Origin: Modestobacter sp. VKM Ac-2984
GTDB lineage: Bacteria; Actinomycetota; Actinomycetes; Mycobacteriales; Geodermatophilaceae
Direction: 5' to 3'
Assembly (NCBI RefSeq): GCF_026967985.1
Contig: NZ_JAPVBJ010000001.1
Span: 124,001-188,000, forward strand
Length of the DNA: 64,000 bases
Below, in pieces: positions 51,299 through 58,568 of the stretch (position 1 is its first letter; every line of letters starts with the position of its first letter). The position numbers were made by a program, and so were the translations under genes. Under the pieces are notes generated by a model. The model was not told the DNA's origin and did not search any database. It worked only from the letters and a program-made list of their open reading frames with translations.

Positions 51299-51491
51299 AC
51301 CCGGCGCGGGCCTGCCCCGCCCCCGGTCCGGGCGGCGCCGGGCCGCGCGCGCGGGCGACACGTCGCCCCTGGACTACCGGCGAGTAGCACATCGGCGTGT
51401 CGCAGAAGGGTCACAGTGTGTCCCAGCAGGTCGATGCCCGTAACAGCAGTGGGTTACTGTCCCGGCTCACATCCAACGGCTGGGAGGTCGA

Positions 51492-52859
51492 GTGACGCAC
51501 GCGCCCCACCGTGCCGCGAGGTGCGGGGAACGCAGCTCCACCCGGGAGGACCCACCCGGACACCGGCGGAGCCCTCGCCGGTGGCACAGCGCCCACCGTC
51601 CACTGGTGCTGGTCCTGCTCCTCGCCGCCTTCGGGATGGCCTTCGCCACCCTGGCGCCCGGCGTCGCCTCCGCAGCCGAGGCGGGCGAGCAGGTGCGCGG
51701 CACCCTGCAGACCAGCCTGAGCGGCCCGATCGAAGGGGTCACCGTCGAGGTGGCCACCCCCGACGGCGAGATCGTGGACACCGTCCAGACCGGCGAGGAC
51801 GGCCGGTGGGAGGTCGACCTCCCGGGTCCCGGCCAGTACGTCGTGAGCGTCGACCCCGACGACCTGCCGGAGGGCGTCGAGGTCAACGGCGAGCCGAGCC
51901 GGACCGTCACCGTCGACGCCGGGCGCGCGCAGCCGGTCAACATCGGCCTGAACGACGGCAGCCGCAACGACGGGGGCGGCACCGTCCGCGCCGTCCAGCT
52001 GTTCGTCGACGGCCTGCGGTTCGGGCTCCTGATCGCCATGGCAGCGGTCGGCCTGTCGTTGATCTACGGCACCACCGGGCTGACCAACTTCGCCCACGGC
52101 GAGCTGGTCACCATCGGCGCCATCGCGGCCTGGTACATCAACGTGCAGGGCGGGGTACCGCTCATCCCCGCCGCCCTCCTGGCGATGGTGGTCGGCGGGG
52201 TCGTCGGCGCCCTCAACGAGCTGATCATCTGGCGGCCGCTGCGGCGCCGCGGCACCGGGCTCATCGCGGCGCTGGTCGTCTCGATCGGGCTCTCCCTGGC
52301 GCTGCGCTACACCTACCAGATCTTCTACGGCGGGTTCTCCAACCCCTACGCCGACTACCAGGGCCAGCGGGCGCGGAGCTACGGCCTGTTCACCCTGCAG
52401 GACCGGGACATCGCCTCGATCGTCATCGCGGTCGTCGTGCTCGTGCTGGTGGCGCTCATGCTGCAGCGCACCAAGATCGGCAAGGCGATGCGGGCGGTGT
52501 CGGACAACCGCGACCTGGCGGCGTCCTCCGGCATCGACGTCAACCGGGTGGTCCTCTTCGTCTGGGTGCTCGGCGGTGCGCTCGCCGCGCTCGGTGGCGT
52601 GCTCCTGGGCCTCTCCGACCAGGTCCAGTGGGACATGGGCTTCCGGCTGCTGCTGCTGATGTTCGCCGGGGTCACCCTCGGTGGGCTCGGGACCGCCTAC
52701 GGCGCCCTGCTCGGCAGCCTCATCGTCGGCGTCTTCGTGCAGATGTCCACCCTCGTCATCCCGAATGACATGAAGTACGTCGGAGGCCTGCTCCTCTTGA
52801 TCGTCATCCTCGTCATCCGTCCCCAGGGCATCCTGGGCAGCCGCGCCAGGATCGGCTGA
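51492..52859 (+). CDS. livH: Branched-chain amino acid ABC transporter permease LivH with an extra N-terminal extracellular domain
   Basis: Membrane subunit of a HAAT-type ABC importer. 455 residues from GTG at 51492 (GGGAGG upstream). Unusually, residues 1-35 are basic, 36-62 form a signal-peptide-like helix ending ASAAEA, and 66-150 form an all-beta carboxypeptidase-regulatory/CNA-B-like domain (GVTVEVATPDGEIVDTVQ, EDGRWEVDLPGPGQYVVSV). The LivH core begins near 175 (GLRFGLLIAMAAVGLSLIYG) and has the EAA-like region KIGKAMRAVSDNRDLAASSG. Four nt before livM. Confidence 0.93.
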   Translation: MTHAPHRAARCGERSSTREDPPGHRRSPRRWHSAHRPLVLVLLLAAFGMAFATLAPGVASAAEAGEQVRGTLQTSLSGPIEGVTVEVATPDGEIVDTVQTGEDGRWEVDLPGPGQYVVSVDPDDLPEGVEVNGEPSRTVTVDAGRAQPVNIGLNDGSRNDGGGTVRAVQLFVDGLRFGLLIAMAAVGLSLIYGTTGLTNFAHGELVTIGAIAAWYINVQGGVPLIPAALLAMVVGGVVGALNELIIWRPLRRRGTGLIAALVVSIGLSLALRYTYQIFYGGFSNPYADYQGQRARSYGLFTLQDRDIASIVIAVVVLVLVALMLQRTKIGKAMRAVSDNRDLAASSGIDVNRVVLFVWVLGGALAALGGVLLGLSDQVQWDMGFRLLLLMFAGVTLGGLGTAYGALLGSLIVGVFVQMSTLVIPNDMKYVGGLLLLIVILVIRPQGILGSRARIG

Positions 52860-52862
52860 CCG

Positions 52863-53861
52863 ATGGCCGACCTCCTCAACGCGTTCGCGATCGCCGGCAA
52901 GGCGTTCTTCGGGTTCCAGGCGATCTTCTTCGCCCTGCTCGCCATCGGGCTCAACGTGCACTTCGGGTACACGGGCCTGCTCAACTTCGGCCAGATCGCC
53001 TTCGCCATGCTCGGCGGTTTCGGCATCGCCATCTCGGTGAGCCAGTGGGGGCTGCCGTTCTGGGTCGGCGTCCTCGTCGGGGTGCTCGCCGCCGTCGTGC
53101 TCGCTCTGCTGCTCGGCCTGCCGACGCTGCGCCTGCGCGCCGACTACCTCGCCATCGTCACCATCGCCACGGCCGAGGGGCTGAGACTGGTCTTCCGATC
53201 CGTCTCCGCCACCCCGGTCACCGGTGGCACCCGGGGCCTGTCGGCGTTCAACCGCGACTTCGTCGCGCTGGCTCCCTGGGACACCGGTCGCCGGTACGAC
53301 CTGATCGGCACCACCTGGAGCGGCAGCGAGCTCTGGGTCGTCACCATCGGGTGGATCCTGGTCGCGCTGTGCTCGCTGCTCGTCTGGGCGCTCATGCGCT
53401 CTCCGTGGGGGCGGGTGGTGAAGGCCATCCGGGAGGACGAGGACGCCGTCCGCTCGCTGGGCAAGAACGTCTACGCCTACAAGATGCAGGCCCTGGTCCT
53501 CGGCGGGATCTTCGGCGCCTTCGGCGGCATGGTGTACGCCATCGGCACCGGTTCGGCGATCCCCGACCAGTACCAGAACGCCAACACCTTCCTGGCCTAC
53601 GCGGCGCTGATCCTCGGTGGTGCGGCGCGGGTGCTCGGCCCCGTCATCGGGTCCATGCTGCTGCTGTTCATCCTGCAGTTCGCCGACACCGGGCTGCGCT
53701 CCCTGATCGCCAACGGGGTCATCCCCGCGGAACTGCTCTCCTCCACCGACGTCGCGCAGCTGCGCTACGTGCTGGTCGGGATCGGGCTCATGCTGTTGTT
53801 GGTGTTCCGGCCCCAGGGCATCTTCGGTGACCGACGAGAGGTGATGCTCGATGCCCGCTGA
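52863..53861 (+). CDS. livM: Branched-chain amino acid ABC transporter permease LivM
   Basis: Second permease subunit. 332 residues with about eight membrane helices. Family markers: GLNVHFGYTGLLNFGQIAF, LRLRADYLAIVTIATAEG, the ABC-coupling SPWGRVVKAIREDEDAVRSLGKNVYAYK segment (split in two runs) and LGGAARVLGPVIGSML. ATG 3 nt after the livH stop; its end overlaps livG by 11 nt. Works with LivH, LivG and LivF; the binding protein is probably the 56396-57724 product. Confidence 0.95.
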   Translation: MADLLNAFAIAGKAFFGFQAIFFALLAIGLNVHFGYTGLLNFGQIAFAMLGGFGIAISVSQWGLPFWVGVLVGVLAAVVLALLLGLPTLRLRADYLAIVTIATAEGLRLVFRSVSATPVTGGTRGLSAFNRDFVALAPWDTGRRYDLIGTTWSGSELWVVTIGWILVALCSLLVWALMRSPWGRVVKAIREDEDAVRSLGKNVYAYKMQALVLGGIFGAFGGMVYAIGTGSAIPDQYQNANTFLAYAALILGGAARVLGPVIGSMLLLFILQFADTGLRSLIANGVIPAELLSSTDVAQLRYVLVGIGLMLLLVFRPQGIFGDRREVMLDAR

Positions 53862-54894
53862 CCCCGCTCCCCACGGCGCGCACGCCGCACGGTCCGAGGA
53901 GGCCACGGTCCCGGCCGGCGGTGCCGCCCCGGCCGGCGCCACGCGCGCTCAGCCCCAGCGGGTGGCCCAGGCCGCCCTCCGGGACGTCCCCTGGGAGGTC
54001 GGCGTCGCCAAGCCCGACCCGGCGATCGTCGTCGACCACGTCACCCGCACGTTCGGCGGCCTCACCGCGGTGTCGGTCGACCACCTGGAGATCCAGCGCG
54101 GCGGGATCACCGGGCTGATCGGCCCCAACGGTGCCGGGAAGACGACGCTGTTCAACCTGCTCACCGGGTTCGACCAGCCCAACACCGGCACCTGGTCGTT
54201 CAACGGCCGCGACCTGGGCAAGCTGAGCCCGCACCAGGTCGCCCGGCTCGGCGTCGTCCGCACCTTCCAGCTGACCAAGGCGCTGTCCCGGCTCACCGTG
54301 CTGCAGAACATGCTGCTCGGCGCCCAGGGGCAGCGCGGGGAGAGCTTCCTCCGTGCCCTGGTGCCCGGCACCTGGAAGGCGCAGGAGAAGGCCAACACCG
54401 AGCGGGCGATGGACCTCCTGCGGCGGTTCAAGCTCGACGCCAAGAAGGACGACTTCGCCGGCAGCCTGTCCGGCGGCCAACGCAAGCTGCTGGAGATGGC
54501 CCGCGCGCTCATGAGCGAGCCGCAGGTGGTGATGCTCGACGAGCCGATGGCCGGGGTGAACCCGGCGCTGACCCAGAGCCTGCTGGGCCACGTCAAGGAC
54601 CTCCGCGAGGAGGGCATGACGGTCATCTTCGTCGAGCACGACATGGACGTCGTCCGGGACATCAGCGACTGGGTCGTCGTCATGGCCGCCGGGAAGGTCA
54701 TCGCCGAGGGCGCACCGGACTCCATCAGCCAGAACAAGGCCGTCGTCGACGCCTACCTCGGCGCGCACCACGACGCCCCGCTGTCCGAGGAGGAGGAGGA
54801 CCGCTTCCTCGCCGAGGACCAGGCGGCCGAACGTGCCCGGCGAGAGGACGTCATCAGCTCCGACCGGGGCCGCAAGAGGAGGACAGGACGATGA
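53851..54894 (+). CDS. livG: Branched-chain amino acid ABC transporter ATP-binding protein LivG
   Basis: 347 residues, with an N-terminal Ala/Pro-rich extension of about 50 residues before the ABC domain. Walker A GPNGAGKTT, LivG-type Q-loop region RTFQLTKALSRLTVLQNML, signature LSGGQRKLLEMARAL, Walker B VVMLDEPMAGVNP, and H-loop VIFVEHDMDVV. An acidic C-terminal tail of about 45 residues follows. Stop overlaps the livF start by 4 nt. Confidence 0.95.
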   Translation: MPADPAPHGAHAARSEEATVPAGGAAPAGATRAQPQRVAQAALRDVPWEVGVAKPDPAIVVDHVTRTFGGLTAVSVDHLEIQRGGITGLIGPNGAGKTTLFNLLTGFDQPNTGTWSFNGRDLGKLSPHQVARLGVVRTFQLTKALSRLTVLQNMLLGAQGQRGESFLRALVPGTWKAQEKANTERAMDLLRRFKLDAKKDDFAGSLSGGQRKLLEMARALMSEPQVVMLDEPMAGVNPALTQSLLGHVKDLREEGMTVIFVEHDMDVVRDISDWVVVMAAGKVIAEGAPDSISQNKAVVDAYLGAHHDAPLSEEEEDRFLAEDQAAERARREDVISSDRGRKRRTGR

Positions 54895-55778
54895 GCACCG
54901 CCGACGTACCAGGTCCGCCGGAGGACCGCAGGTTCTCGGTCCCGGAGTCCGAGCAGGACCGGCCGGTCGCCGAGGAGCCCGGGGCCGCCACCGCGGCGGC
55001 CATGTCGCCCGCGGAGAAGGCAGCCACCCGGGAGGAGCACCTGCGGCTCGCCGAGGGTGCACTGGTCCGCGCCGACGACCTGGTGGCGGGCTACGTGCCC
55101 GGGGTCAACATCCTCAACGGCTGCGACTTCTACCTCGCCGACGGCGAGCTCGTCGGGATCATCGGCCCCAACGGCGCCGGCAAGTCCACGCTGCTCAAGG
55201 CGTTGTTCGGGCTGATCCCGGTCCGGTCCGGCGCGGTGACGCTCCGCGGGGAGGACATCACGTCGGCCCCGGCCCACCGGCTGGTCTCCCTGGGCGTCGG
55301 CTACGTGCCGCAGAACAACAACGTGTTCCCCTCGCTCACCATCGAGGAGAACATGCAGATGGGCGTTTACCTGCGTCCGAAGTCGTTCAAGGAGCGCTTC
55401 GACTACGTCGCCGACCTGTTCCCGCTCCTCGGTGACCGGCGGAAGGGCAAGGCCGGCGCCCTCTCCGGTGGCGAGCGGCAGATGGTGGCCATGGGCCGCG
55501 CACTCATGATGGACCCCTCCGTGCTGCTCCTGGACGAGCCCTCGGCGGGCCTCTCCCCGGTGCTGCAGGACGAGGTGTTCATCCGCTGCCGGCGGATCAA
55601 CGCCACCGGCGTCTCGATCATCATGGTCGAGCAGAACGCCCGGCGGTGCCTGCAGATCTGCCACCGTGGCTACGTGCTCGACCAGGGCCGCAACGCCTAC
55701 ACCGACACCGGCAAGTCGCTGATGAACGACCCGAAGGTGATCGAGCTCTACCTGGGGACCCTCGCCAAGGCCCAGTGA
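54891..55778 (+). CDS. livF: Branched-chain amino acid ABC transporter ATP-binding protein LivF
   Basis: 295 residues with a ~55-residue Ala/Glu-rich N-terminal extension. Walker A GPNGAGKST, GYVPQNNNVFPSLTIEENM (LivF-type), signature LSGGERQMVAMGRAL, Walker B VLLLDEPSAGLSP and IIMVEQNARRCL. Last gene of livHMGF; a strong terminator hairpin follows. Confidence 0.95.
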   Translation: MSTADVPGPPEDRRFSVPESEQDRPVAEEPGAATAAAMSPAEKAATREEHLRLAEGALVRADDLVAGYVPGVNILNGCDFYLADGELVGIIGPNGAGKSTLLKALFGLIPVRSGAVTLRGEDITSAPAHRLVSLGVGYVPQNNNVFPSLTIEENMQMGVYLRPKSFKERFDYVADLFPLLGDRRKGKAGALSGGERQMVAMGRALMMDPSVLLLDEPSAGLSPVLQDEVFIRCRRINATGVSIIMVEQNARRCLQICHRGYVLDQGRNAYTDTGKSLMNDPKVIELYLGTLAKAQ

Positions 55779-55857: not shown

Positions 55858-56274
55858 GTGCTCCTCCTCGTCCACCTGATCGCGGTCAGCGCGTACGCCG
55901 GCTTCCAGTGGACCGTGCGGGTGCTCGTCTACCCCCAGTTCGACCAGGTGCCCGCGGCTGCCTTCCCCGCCTACGAGCGTGCGCACCAGCGCCGGGTGGC
56001 CCGGGTGGTGGGGCCCCTCTTCGCCGCGCAGGCGGTGACCAGCGGCTGGCTGCTCGTCGACCCGCCGGCCGGGACGCCGTGGGGCCTGGCCCTCGCCGCG
56101 GCCACGGTGACCGCCCTGGTCCTGCTGGTGACCGCGCTCGGCGCCGTGCCGCTGCACCGCCGCCTGGACGCCGGCTGGGACGCCGCCGTCCACCGTCGGC
56201 TGCTCCGCGTGGACGCCCTCCGGGTGGGCCTGGCGACCGCCGGCGTCGTCCTCGCCGTGCTGCTGGTCGGCTGA
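55858..56274 (+). CDS. Small integral membrane protein, function unknown
   Basis: 138 residues from GTG at 55858. Four predicted membrane helices (about 1-20, 49-69, 75-95 and 118-137) with a conserved-looking YPQFDQVPAAAFPAYERAHQRR loop, reminiscent of DUF1772-type membrane proteins. No ribosome site is obvious, and the upstream terminator leaves only 38 nt for a promoter. Codon usage fits the genome. Confidence 0.7.
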   Translation: MLLLVHLIAVSAYAGFQWTVRVLVYPQFDQVPAAAFPAYERAHQRRVARVVGPLFAAQAVTSGWLLVDPPAGTPWGLALAAATVTALVLLVTALGAVPLHRRLDAGWDAAVHRRLLRVDALRVGLATAGVVLAVLLVG

Positions 56275-56395: not shown

Positions 56396-57724
56396 TCAGC
56401 GCTGGGGCCCGATGCCCTGGGCGTTGAGGCCCTGGATGATCCGCGAGGACTCCTCGAAACCGATGACCACGACGGCGTCGGGGTTGAAGTCCACCATCTG
56501 CTGGACCTCGGAGTCGAAGTTCGCCGCCTGCGGGTCGTAGGTGACGTACTTGATGCTGTCCTCGGACAGACCACCGGCGATCAGGTTGTCGCGGGTGTTC
56601 TCGGCCAGACCCGTGCCGTACGGGTCGTTGATCGCCAGGATGCCGACGGTGTTGTTGCCGTCCTCGGCGATCAGGTCGGCCAGCGCACGGGCCTGCAGCG
56701 TGTCCGGGGGCGCAGTGCGGAAGTACAGGCCGTTGTCGGCGTACTCGGTGAACTGGTCGGAGGTGTTCGCCGGCGAGATCTGCAGGACACCGGCACCGGT
56801 GATGGTGTCGATGACGGTGAGGCTCACCCCGGACGACGCGGCACCGACGATGGCGTCGACGTTGGACTGCAGCAGCCGGTCGACCGTCTGGGTGGCGGTG
56901 TCGGTCGAGGCGTCACCGGAGTCACCCTCGACGAGCTGCACCGGCTGGCCGAGCACGCCACCGGCCTCGTTGACCTCGTTGACCGCCAGCTGTGCAGCGG
57001 CGACCTCGGGCGGGCCGAGGAAGGCCAGGTTCCCGGTCAGCGGCAGCAAGGTGCCGATCACCAGGGGGTCACCCGTGGCGCCCGCCGGCGCGTAGGCCGG
57101 GCCCTCGTCGGTGGCGGCGTTGGCCTCGTCACCGGCGATGACGAAGTCGGTCTCCGCGTCGTCGAGGGCGTTGTCCTCACCGAACTGGAGGATGCCGAAG
57201 CTGGCCTGGGCCGGCTCCCCGGCCTCGGCGAAGCTCAGCGGCCCGCTGACACCGTCGTAGTCGACGTTGCCACCGGCGTTGATGATCTCCAGGCAGGCGC
57301 TGTAGCTGTCGCAGGCCTCTCCACCGAAGGTCAGCCCGTTGAGGTACGGCGCGAACACGGTGGCGTCACTGCTGCCGGCGGCCTGGGCCGCCAGCGCGGT
57401 CAGGATGACGGCGTCGTAGGTCTCACCGGCGTAGTTGTAGTCCTGCAGGTCCGGGTCGATCGCGAGCAGCCGCTCGGTGAAGTCGCCGGAGAGCTCGGTC
57501 AGCGGCGTGGTGCCGCTCATCCCGACGAGCGCACCCTCGTCCGAGAAGTCCTCGCCGAGGGCGTTGCCCATGTTGCCGTCGGTGCCGTAGATGTTGACCT
57601 GCTTCTCGCCGCTCGCATCCTCAGCAGCGGTACCGCCGTCCTCGTCGCTGCCGCCACAGGCGGTCAGCGCGAGGAGGGCAGCGCCGGAGAGGGCGGTCGC
57701 GCGGGCAAATGTGCCTGTGCGCAT
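56396..57724 (-). CDS. Branched-chain amino acid binding lipoprotein, apparently circularly permuted
   Basis: 442 residues from ATG at 57724 (GGGAG upstream). Lipobox LTAC with Cys23. Residues 41-190 correspond to the usual C-terminal half of a LivK-type binding protein (VNIYGTDGNMGN, YNYAGETYDAVILTALA, a CDSYSAC disulfide, DGVSGPLSF). Residues 220-442 correspond to the usual N-terminal half (LVIGTLLPLTGNLAFLGPPE, VNEAGGVLGQPVQLV, VDAIVGAASSGV, ending QGLNAQGIGPQR). Joining the present C-terminus to residue 41 restores normal family order. Probable partner of LivHMGF; function of the permuted form is unproven. Confidence 0.88.
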   Translation of the reverse strand: MRTGTFARATALSGAALLALTACGGSDEDGGTAAEDASGEKQVNIYGTDGNMGNALGEDFSDEGALVGMSGTTPLTELSGDFTERLLAIDPDLQDYNYAGETYDAVILTALAAQAAGSSDATVFAPYLNGLTFGGEACDSYSACLEIINAGGNVDYDGVSGPLSFAEAGEPAQASFGILQFGEDNALDDAETDFVIAGDEANAATDEGPAYAPAGATGDPLVIGTLLPLTGNLAFLGPPEVAAAQLAVNEVNEAGGVLGQPVQLVEGDSGDASTDTATQTVDRLLQSNVDAIVGAASSGVSLTVIDTITGAGVLQISPANTSDQFTEYADNGLYFRTAPPDTLQARALADLIAEDGNNTVGILAINDPYGTGLAENTRDNLIAGGLSEDSIKYVTYDPQAANFDSEVQQMVDFNPDAVVVIGFEESSRIIQGLNAQGIGPQR

Positions 57725-57760
57725 CAAGGAACTCCCAGTGAGGTGTGTGCTCCACGCTCT

Positions 57761-57947: not shown

Positions 57948-58568
57948 TCAGGAGTCGGCGGGAGCGGTCGGGCTGGGGTCTCCGGTCGGCTGCGCGTCGG
58001 TGGCCAGGATCGCCTGCGCCAGGGCCTTCATCGACGTGCGCTCGTTCATCGCCGTCCGCTGGATCCAGCGGAAGGCCTCCGCCTCGGTCATGCCGCGCTC
58101 GGACATGAGCCGGCCCTTGGCCTGCTCGACGACCTTGCGGGTCTCCAGCCGCTCCTTCAGGTCGCTCACCTCGGCGTCCAGGGCGTGCATCTCCTGGAAC
58201 CGGCCCACCGCCACCTCGATCGCGGGCACCAGGTCGTTCTTGGAGAACGGCTTCACCAGGTAGGCCATCGCACCGGCGTCCCGGGCGCGCTCGACGAGCT
58301 CCCGCTGGCTGAAGGCCGTCAGCACGATCACCGGCGCGATGCGCGCGGCAGCGATCTGCTCGGCCGCGGCGATCCCGTCGAGGACGGGCATCTGGACGTC
58401 GAGGACGACGAGGTCCGGGCGCAGCAGCTGCGCCTGTTCCACGGCGGCCTGCCCGTCGCCGACTTCAGCGACGACGACGTAGCCCTCCTCCTCCAGCATC
58501 TCCTTGAGGTCCAGGCGGATGAGGGCCTCGTCCTCTGCGATGAGGACCCGGGTCGGTGCGTTGGTCAC
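57948..58568 (-). CDS. ANTAR-domain response regulator (PdtaR-like)
   Basis: Two-component output protein that binds RNA hairpins to prevent termination. 206 residues. Receiver domain (about 1-125) with acidic pocket EDE near residue 12, phospho-acceptor Asp in VVLDVQMP (near 57), Thr in VLTAFS and Lys in LVKPFS. A coiled-coil linker leads to the ANTAR domain (about 140-195) with KVVEQAKGRLMSERGMTEAEAF, split here. Homologous in position to M. tuberculosis Rv1626. Its sensor kinase is not in the window. Confidence 0.93.
   Translation of the reverse strand: MTNAPTRVLIAEDEALIRLDLKEMLEEEGYVVVAEVGDGQAAVEQAQLLRPDLVVLDVQMPVLDGIAAAEQIAAARIAPVIVLTAFSQRELVERARDAGAMAYLVKPFSKNDLVPAIEVAVGRFQEMHALDAEVSDLKERLETRKVVEQAKGRLMSERGMTEAEAFRWIQRTAMNERTSMKALAQAILATDAQPTGDPSPTAPADS

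Follow-up and report, generated by a model that had tools for sequence, protein, structure and literature searches.

Most natural circular permutations of proteins happened once and long ago, and neither their intermediates nor their causes survive. Among type I ABC binding lipoproteins, a natural permutation has been described in TpMglB-2 (Tp0684), one of the "Type Ic" ligand-binding proteins, and the available part of that report proposes membrane anchoring as a possible reason for it (Brautigam et al. 2016, PMC4990184). Permutation by duplication has also been reviewed, with documented intermediates, in a source whose available part names DNA methyltransferases and saposin/swaposin (PMC3320104). 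A literature search that took in few subscription journals found no report of repeated permutation at one locus or of any permutation in the LivK family. Here we describe a permuted LivK-type substrate-binding lipoprotein (SBP) from Modestobacter sp. VKM Ac-2984 (Geodermatophilaceae), encoded in a stretch of 64,000 nucleotides referred to below as the window.

TpMglB-2 resembles the window SBP in being a two-lobed type I protein with a natural permutation, and it still binds and closes (PMC4990184, available part). It differs in being a relative of the sugar-binding MglB, in carrying the first three strands of the N-lobe at its C-terminus, and in having gained a fourth crossover; its permuted part matches only weakly by sequence, and in the available part of the report the related permuted proteins appear without normal-order orthologues at the same locus (PMC4990184). 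The shift of TpMglB-2 was not found in the window SBP, where everything before the final lobe 2 strand comes after the linker. LivJ/LivK and HAAT-type proteins (Peripla_BP_6; 4n0q, 3ipc, and 4gnr) share with it both half-sequences, the two-lobed fold, and LivHMGF partners, and those of Gram-positive bacteria are likewise lipoproteins; the window SBP departs from them in its chain order, in a tether that sits on the other lobe, and in a linker between the old termini. With the reviewed permutation-by-duplication families it shares the proposed genetic route, but it differs from what the available part of that review describes in having several changes in one orthologous gene, a fixed locus, two preferred cuts, and no fused intermediate (PMC3320104). 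TpMglB-2 is a precedent for natural permutation in a type I SBP, although its cut and ligand class are different; what is unusual here is the recurrence.

RESULTS

The two halves of a LivK-type lipoprotein are encoded in swapped order

The SBP gene (Table 1) starts with an ATG at position 57724 and ends with a stop codon at 56396-56398. The intact frame, lipobox, and ribosome-binding site claimed by a first-pass annotation of the window were all recovered, as a 442-aa open reading frame (ORF), the motif LTAC with Cys23, and GGGAG 7 nt before the start. We take LTAC to be the lipobox, Cys23 being the presumed lipidated residue. The same annotation spoke of a cleavage between the halves, which was not borne out: the ORF is continuous, with no sign of processing past the signal peptide.

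Table 1. Features of the SBP gene and its neighbors, in window coordinates
Feature	Position	Strand	Basis
livH permease with N-terminal exported CarboxypepD_reg-like domain	51447..52856	+	PF13620; putative start
livM permease	52863..53861	+	Pfam
livG ATPase	53851..54894	+	Pfam
livF ATPase, convergent with SBP gene	54891..55778	+	locus comparison and Pfam
138-aa ORF between livF and SBP gene, weakly Anthrone_oxy-like	55858..56274	+	match below cutoff
LivK-type substrate-binding lipoprotein (SBP), permuted, 442 aa plus stop	56396..57724	-	ORF, profiles, family conservation, AlphaFold2
New SBP C-terminus GPQR, first side of breakpoint	56399..56410	-	junction comparison
SBP residues 219-438, the family N-terminal half in second place	56411..57070	-	own profile
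SBP linker, 33 residues (186-218), old C-terminus to old N-terminus	57071..57169	-	clade members
SBP residues 43-185, the family C-terminal half in first place, starts VNIYGTDGNMGN	57170..57598	-	own profile and ANF_receptor
Low-complexity SBP tether, residues 24-40, now joined to lobe 2	57605..57655	-	sequence
Lipoprotein signal peptide with lipobox LTAC, residues 1-23	57656..57724	-	sequence
GGGAG, ribosome-binding-site-like, 7 nt before SBP ATG	57732..57736	-	sequence
ANTAR-domain response regulator, pdtaR-like, upstream of SBP gene	57948..58568	-	locus comparison and Pfam

Profile searches placed the parts of the protein in reverse of the family order. Residues 221-440 matched positions 2-217 of the 343 positions of Pfam Peripla_BP_6 (E = 3.3e-36), while residues 39-186 alone matched positions 227-350 of the 353 of ANF_receptor (E = 1.1e-5) with 25.1 bits, just below the curated cutoff of 25.4. 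The colinear match of normal-order family members, such as the relative L252, which covered positions 3-338 of 343 of Peripla_BP_6 in one stretch, was absent from the SBP: profile positions 2-217 come after 227-350, and half-profiles of our own agreed. Both halves are thus homologous by profile comparison to those of the relatives, in reversed order within a single frame. This upholds the swap reported at first pass, whose half boundaries (41-190 and 220-442) lie within a few residues of the profile boundaries, as well as its view that nothing was lost, since all family parts are retained.

In searches with the single sequence, solved Leu/Ile/Val-binding proteins matched the second part of the SBP only. 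A profile of normal-order relatives aligned with LivJ/LivK-type structures over both halves and in family order, and its DG motif fell on the DG of 3ipc, whose acid we take to bind the amino group of the ligand. AlphaFold2 modeled the permuted SBP as one confident two-lobed fold (pLDDT 90.4, pTM 0.88), as the first-pass reading had anticipated; residues 1-15 of the mature chain had pLDDT below 50. Structural comparison of the model covered the N-half only, because the aligner is sequential. On these comparisons of sequence, the window SBP is a LivK-type binding protein that has been circularly permuted in nature.

Linkers of the permuted clade were 30-41 residues long, 33 being the commonest length. 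By eye, the linker seemed to be made up of three pieces: the tail of the old C-terminus, a spacer, and the former mature N-terminus, which ends in GDG. In the C-half, Cys116 and Cys122 of the mature protein were invariant across the aligned permuted proteins, and two cysteines were also present in normal-order SBPs; because of this conservation, a disulfide between the two C-half cysteines of the SBP is likely.

Lineages of Actinomycetota alternate between the two chain orders

Full-length permuted SBPs were found in 22 of 23 genomes of the same genus, its own genome counted, and in 92 of 112 Geodermatophilaceae genomes; the remainder of the family gave fragments in 3 genomes and no match in 17 (E 1e-20). 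The search for the same order in related genomes, recommended at first pass, thus spoke for the permutation and against a mis-assembly. Compared with seven relatives, dN/dS was below 0.5 in every part of the SBP where it was computable. Within the source genome the permuted SBP is the only close homologue, the next SBP matches being distant and confined to the N-half. Three genomes of the same genus contain a normal-order paralogue, with 45-47% and 38% identity in the halves; for L033/L034 from this genus, the values are 46-47% and 38%.

Outside the family, permuted SBPs were present in approximately 99 of 150 sampled Micromonosporaceae genomes (a count of rows), 16 of 245 Nocardioidaceae genomes, 4 of 4 genomes from the order of family f39, and 12 of 85 genomes of the small family f49, all of these in genus g157 (10 full-length and 2 partial). 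An even sample of the class contained at least 11 in 394 genomes, and one of the phylum contained 8 in 396. A form with a second cut, described below, was found in 7 of 247 genomes in the class of G1114 (Acidimicrobiia) and in 2 of 35 genomes of family f68. In a plasmid collection, 487 records matched the SBP, and one place reached at least 80% query coverage, a two-piece, normal-order-like match in Nonomuraea. Our half-profiles classed 143 of 274 distinct ORFs as permuted; near-identical rows were removed by hand-made lists ahead of counting and tree building. As far as these searches reach, permuted and normal SBP forms alternate across Actinomycetota.

The chain is cut at one of two sites flanking the DG strand

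Of 126 distinct permuted SBPs with the first cut, 98 have a chain that stops 4 residues past the N-half (range, 2 to 6), and 4 residues join the halves in 105 of 114 normal-order relatives; these junction counts omit the cut-off ORFs L181, L210, L128, and L256, and from L211 and L190 only one half was obtained. This cut sits just before the conserved DG strand. The first-pass annotation would have counted normal-order relatives with identical junctions against a permutation. Such relatives do exist, but they are separate genes or belong to other lineages, and they mark the cut and refute nothing.

Three groups share the loop of the first cut, and Acidimicrobiia and family f68 are cut 20-22 residues further on. 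The second-cut loci of Acidimicrobiia and relatives comprise L223, L230, L231, L241, L247, L248, L251, and L263, with G1114 and others. In their SBPs the DG strand remains C-terminal, and all 14 sequences have a tail of either 24 or 26 residues. The 274 distinct ORFs with both halves included no intermediate built of three parts (N-C-N or C-N-C).

The SBP gene mostly adjoins livF in both orders

In the window, the SBP gene is convergent with livF of a livHMGF operon (Table 1). Loci were compared by probing with the neighbor genes of the window, some of the loci being short. On this basis, livF lies convergent next to the SBP gene in 42 of 46 first-cut, 8 of 8 second-cut, and 49 of 58 normal-order loci, and a pdtaR-like gene (the name pdtaR for the response regulator being our assumption) flanks the SBP gene opposite livF in 39 of 46, 0 of 8, and 28 of 58, respectively. 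Most of the Actinomycetota loci examined have a normal-order SBP beside livF, and a permuted SBP occupies that place in several separate lineages. N-terminal CarboxypepD_reg/Ig-like extensions were seen by eye to precede LivH in permuted and normal-order loci alike. Some loci of Geodermatophilaceae have the 138-aa ORF, which can point either way.

All states are found in genus g157: G451 has the permuted gene, G910 the normal gene, and G909 (L196) the permuted followed by the normal gene in tandem, the sole such pair among the loci read. The G909 pair (contig 374, 1056-3989) contains a divergent permuted copy (branch length, 1.47) with a different leader. Two or three normal-order copies stand in tandem beside livF in Streptosporangiaceae (L204, L276, L279, and L285). 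In the Micromonosporaceae loci L036, L258, and L259, the permuted gene is distant from the liv genes; it is a normal-order gene that adjoins livF in this family. The neighbors of the permuted gene are conserved between these three loci, and those in L036 and L258 include an ORF that we take to be 3-hydroxyacyl-CoA-dehydrogenase-like. A contig labeled as a Bifidobacterium breve metagenome-assembled genome (L284), probably mis-binned, contains a normal-order gene that groups with an f49 protein (L201).

Trees conflict with a single origin of the permuted order

SBP halves were cut by profile, re-linearized to family order, and aligned for tree building. The permuted proteins were assigned to five groups: A, Geodermatophilaceae and Micromonosporaceae; B, f39 and f49; C, Nocardioidaceae; D, Acidimicrobiia; and E, f68. 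L183_PERM (branch length, 1.47) was dropped after the 93-row tree, the long-branched L033-L035 were absent from the 97-row tree and half-trees, and L248, whose C-half breaks off with an apparent frameshift, was kept out of all trees.

In the 93-row tree the permuted label changed three times, each time on a supported branch. With Acidimicrobiia added, the normal label needed four changes, and the best 97-row tree, which included more members of the phylum, contained five order changes, all forced by well-supported branches. Approximately unbiased (AU) tests rejected one clade of first-cut permuted proteins (p = 2.8e-5), the pairings A+B (p = 7e-4), B+C (p = 1e-3), and A+C (p = 5e-6), and one clade of all 45 permuted rows, second-cut groups included (p = 1e-83). 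A single permuted clade was likewise rejected for each half alone (p = 1.3e-6 and 1.6e-5), and in the half-trees the permuted Nocardioidaceae fell with normal-order Nocardioidaceae (support, 100/100 and 97/96). In quick half-trees, groups A and C were not recovered as single clades, nor was B in the C-half. A tree rooted with seven distant outgroups required six changes, one equally short reading being four gains and two reversals; the outgroup attached near clade B via long branches, and the direction and number of order changes near the root are uncertain. Because the trees and AU tests must be weighed against the half-trees and the rooting, we regard three to four separate order changes as well supported by the sequences and five as the best estimate, with groups C and E appearing as the clearest gains of permutation.

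Leader sequences were compared as well. In five of the six permuted f49 proteins, the leader shares 21-23 of 24 residues with normal-order f49 leaders, against 12-13 of 24 with leaders from other permuted clades; in G909, the sixth, it has no close likeness to the normal-order f49 leaders. Leader similarity weakly favors normal genes of the same family in Nocardioidaceae and does not do so in Geodermatophilaceae. The f49 leaders are as expected if the mature domain was rearranged while the local leader stayed in place, or if recombination acted locally.

Alternative histories and roles

It is possible, though we consider it rather unlikely, that an ancestor of groups A and D had the DG strand at both ends and was later trimmed to the two cuts, the normal-order genes of family f8 then being a reversal. 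Such an ancestor accords with a branch (99/90) that has groups A and D together with the normal-order f8 genes on one side, and an A+D clade was only weakly rejected (p = 0.030), as was D+E (p = 0.020). No protein of this kind was seen, however: first-cut tails are 2-6 residues long in 126 of 126 sequences and second-cut tails 24 or 26, and for a reversal in f8 the chain would have to be permuted once more, at its old ends.

A single ancient permutation seems to us quite unlikely. It would require an early tandem pair of permuted and normal genes, differential loss, and gene conversion that made permuted copies mimic the local normal gene. Gene conversion between tandem copies could indeed mimic separate origins in groups that share a cut; the G909 locus holds the two forms side by side, linker lengths are alike across groups (mostly 32-34 residues), and the f49 leaders look shared or converted. 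In addition, the long-branched permuted copy of G909 joins the other permuted f49 proteins (100/96). Against this, conversion would have to span nearly the whole mature protein in Nocardioidaceae, because both halves of the proteins there fall with the local normal genes, and with high support. Nor does conversion explain the 20-22-residue offset of the second cut, and the loci read provide just the one permuted-normal tandem pair.

That the permuted SBP is an orphan receptor, no longer feeding the transporter, we consider improbable. The displaced genes in the three Micromonosporaceae loci fit this idea, but livF adjoins nearly all first-cut genes, and the source genome has no other close homologue. 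An assembly error, a local inversion, or chance resemblance is practically excluded, because the order is conserved across the genomes of the genus and family under the low dN/dS given above.

DISCUSSION

We are confident in the overall reading that the window encodes a working SBP of LivHMGF, permuted behind its lipoprotein leader, whose order switched several times, probably via duplication, with a move of the tether to lobe 2 as the likely effect. We infer both its role in transport and its substrate: the SBP would serve the neighboring LivHMGF importer, binding the ligand in the usual cleft and delivering it to LivHM. The mature domain, predicted to form an ordinary two-lobed Venus flytrap, appears to have been permuted while the lipoprotein signal peptide ahead of it stayed of the same type. 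Its chain would start in lobe 2, immediately ahead of the DG-motif strand, and proceed to the old C-terminus; a linker of approximately 33 residues would then lead to the old N-terminus, and the chain would end at the cut loop. The order changes seem always to have used one of the two cuts, 20-22 residues apart, that flank the DG strand.

The likeliest route would be permutation by duplication, which is suggested because tandem SBP copies occur, once as a permuted gene beside a normal one. An SBP gene would duplicate in tandem and the copies would fuse, after which the redundant first N-half and last C-half would be lost. The likeliest effect would be a membrane tether on lobe 2 in place of lobe 1, where it precedes the first strand close to the ligand loop, with the binding site unchanged.

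With somewhat less assurance, we favor the reading that one importer gene, at a mostly fixed locus, underwent approximately five in-place switches at two preferred cuts. Such recurrent convergence in topology would have been favored because it puts the lipid tether on lobe 2 instead of lobe 1 while the binding site stays intact.

Permuted and normal orthologues occur together in close relatives, even within genus g157, at one locus. This coexistence makes possible direct tests of how permutations originate, which cuts are tolerated, and whether the position of the tether is under selection. More permuted proteins may go unnoticed, because profile-based annotation detects one half only. The natural cuts also show designers of biosensors where LivK-type proteins can be reopened.
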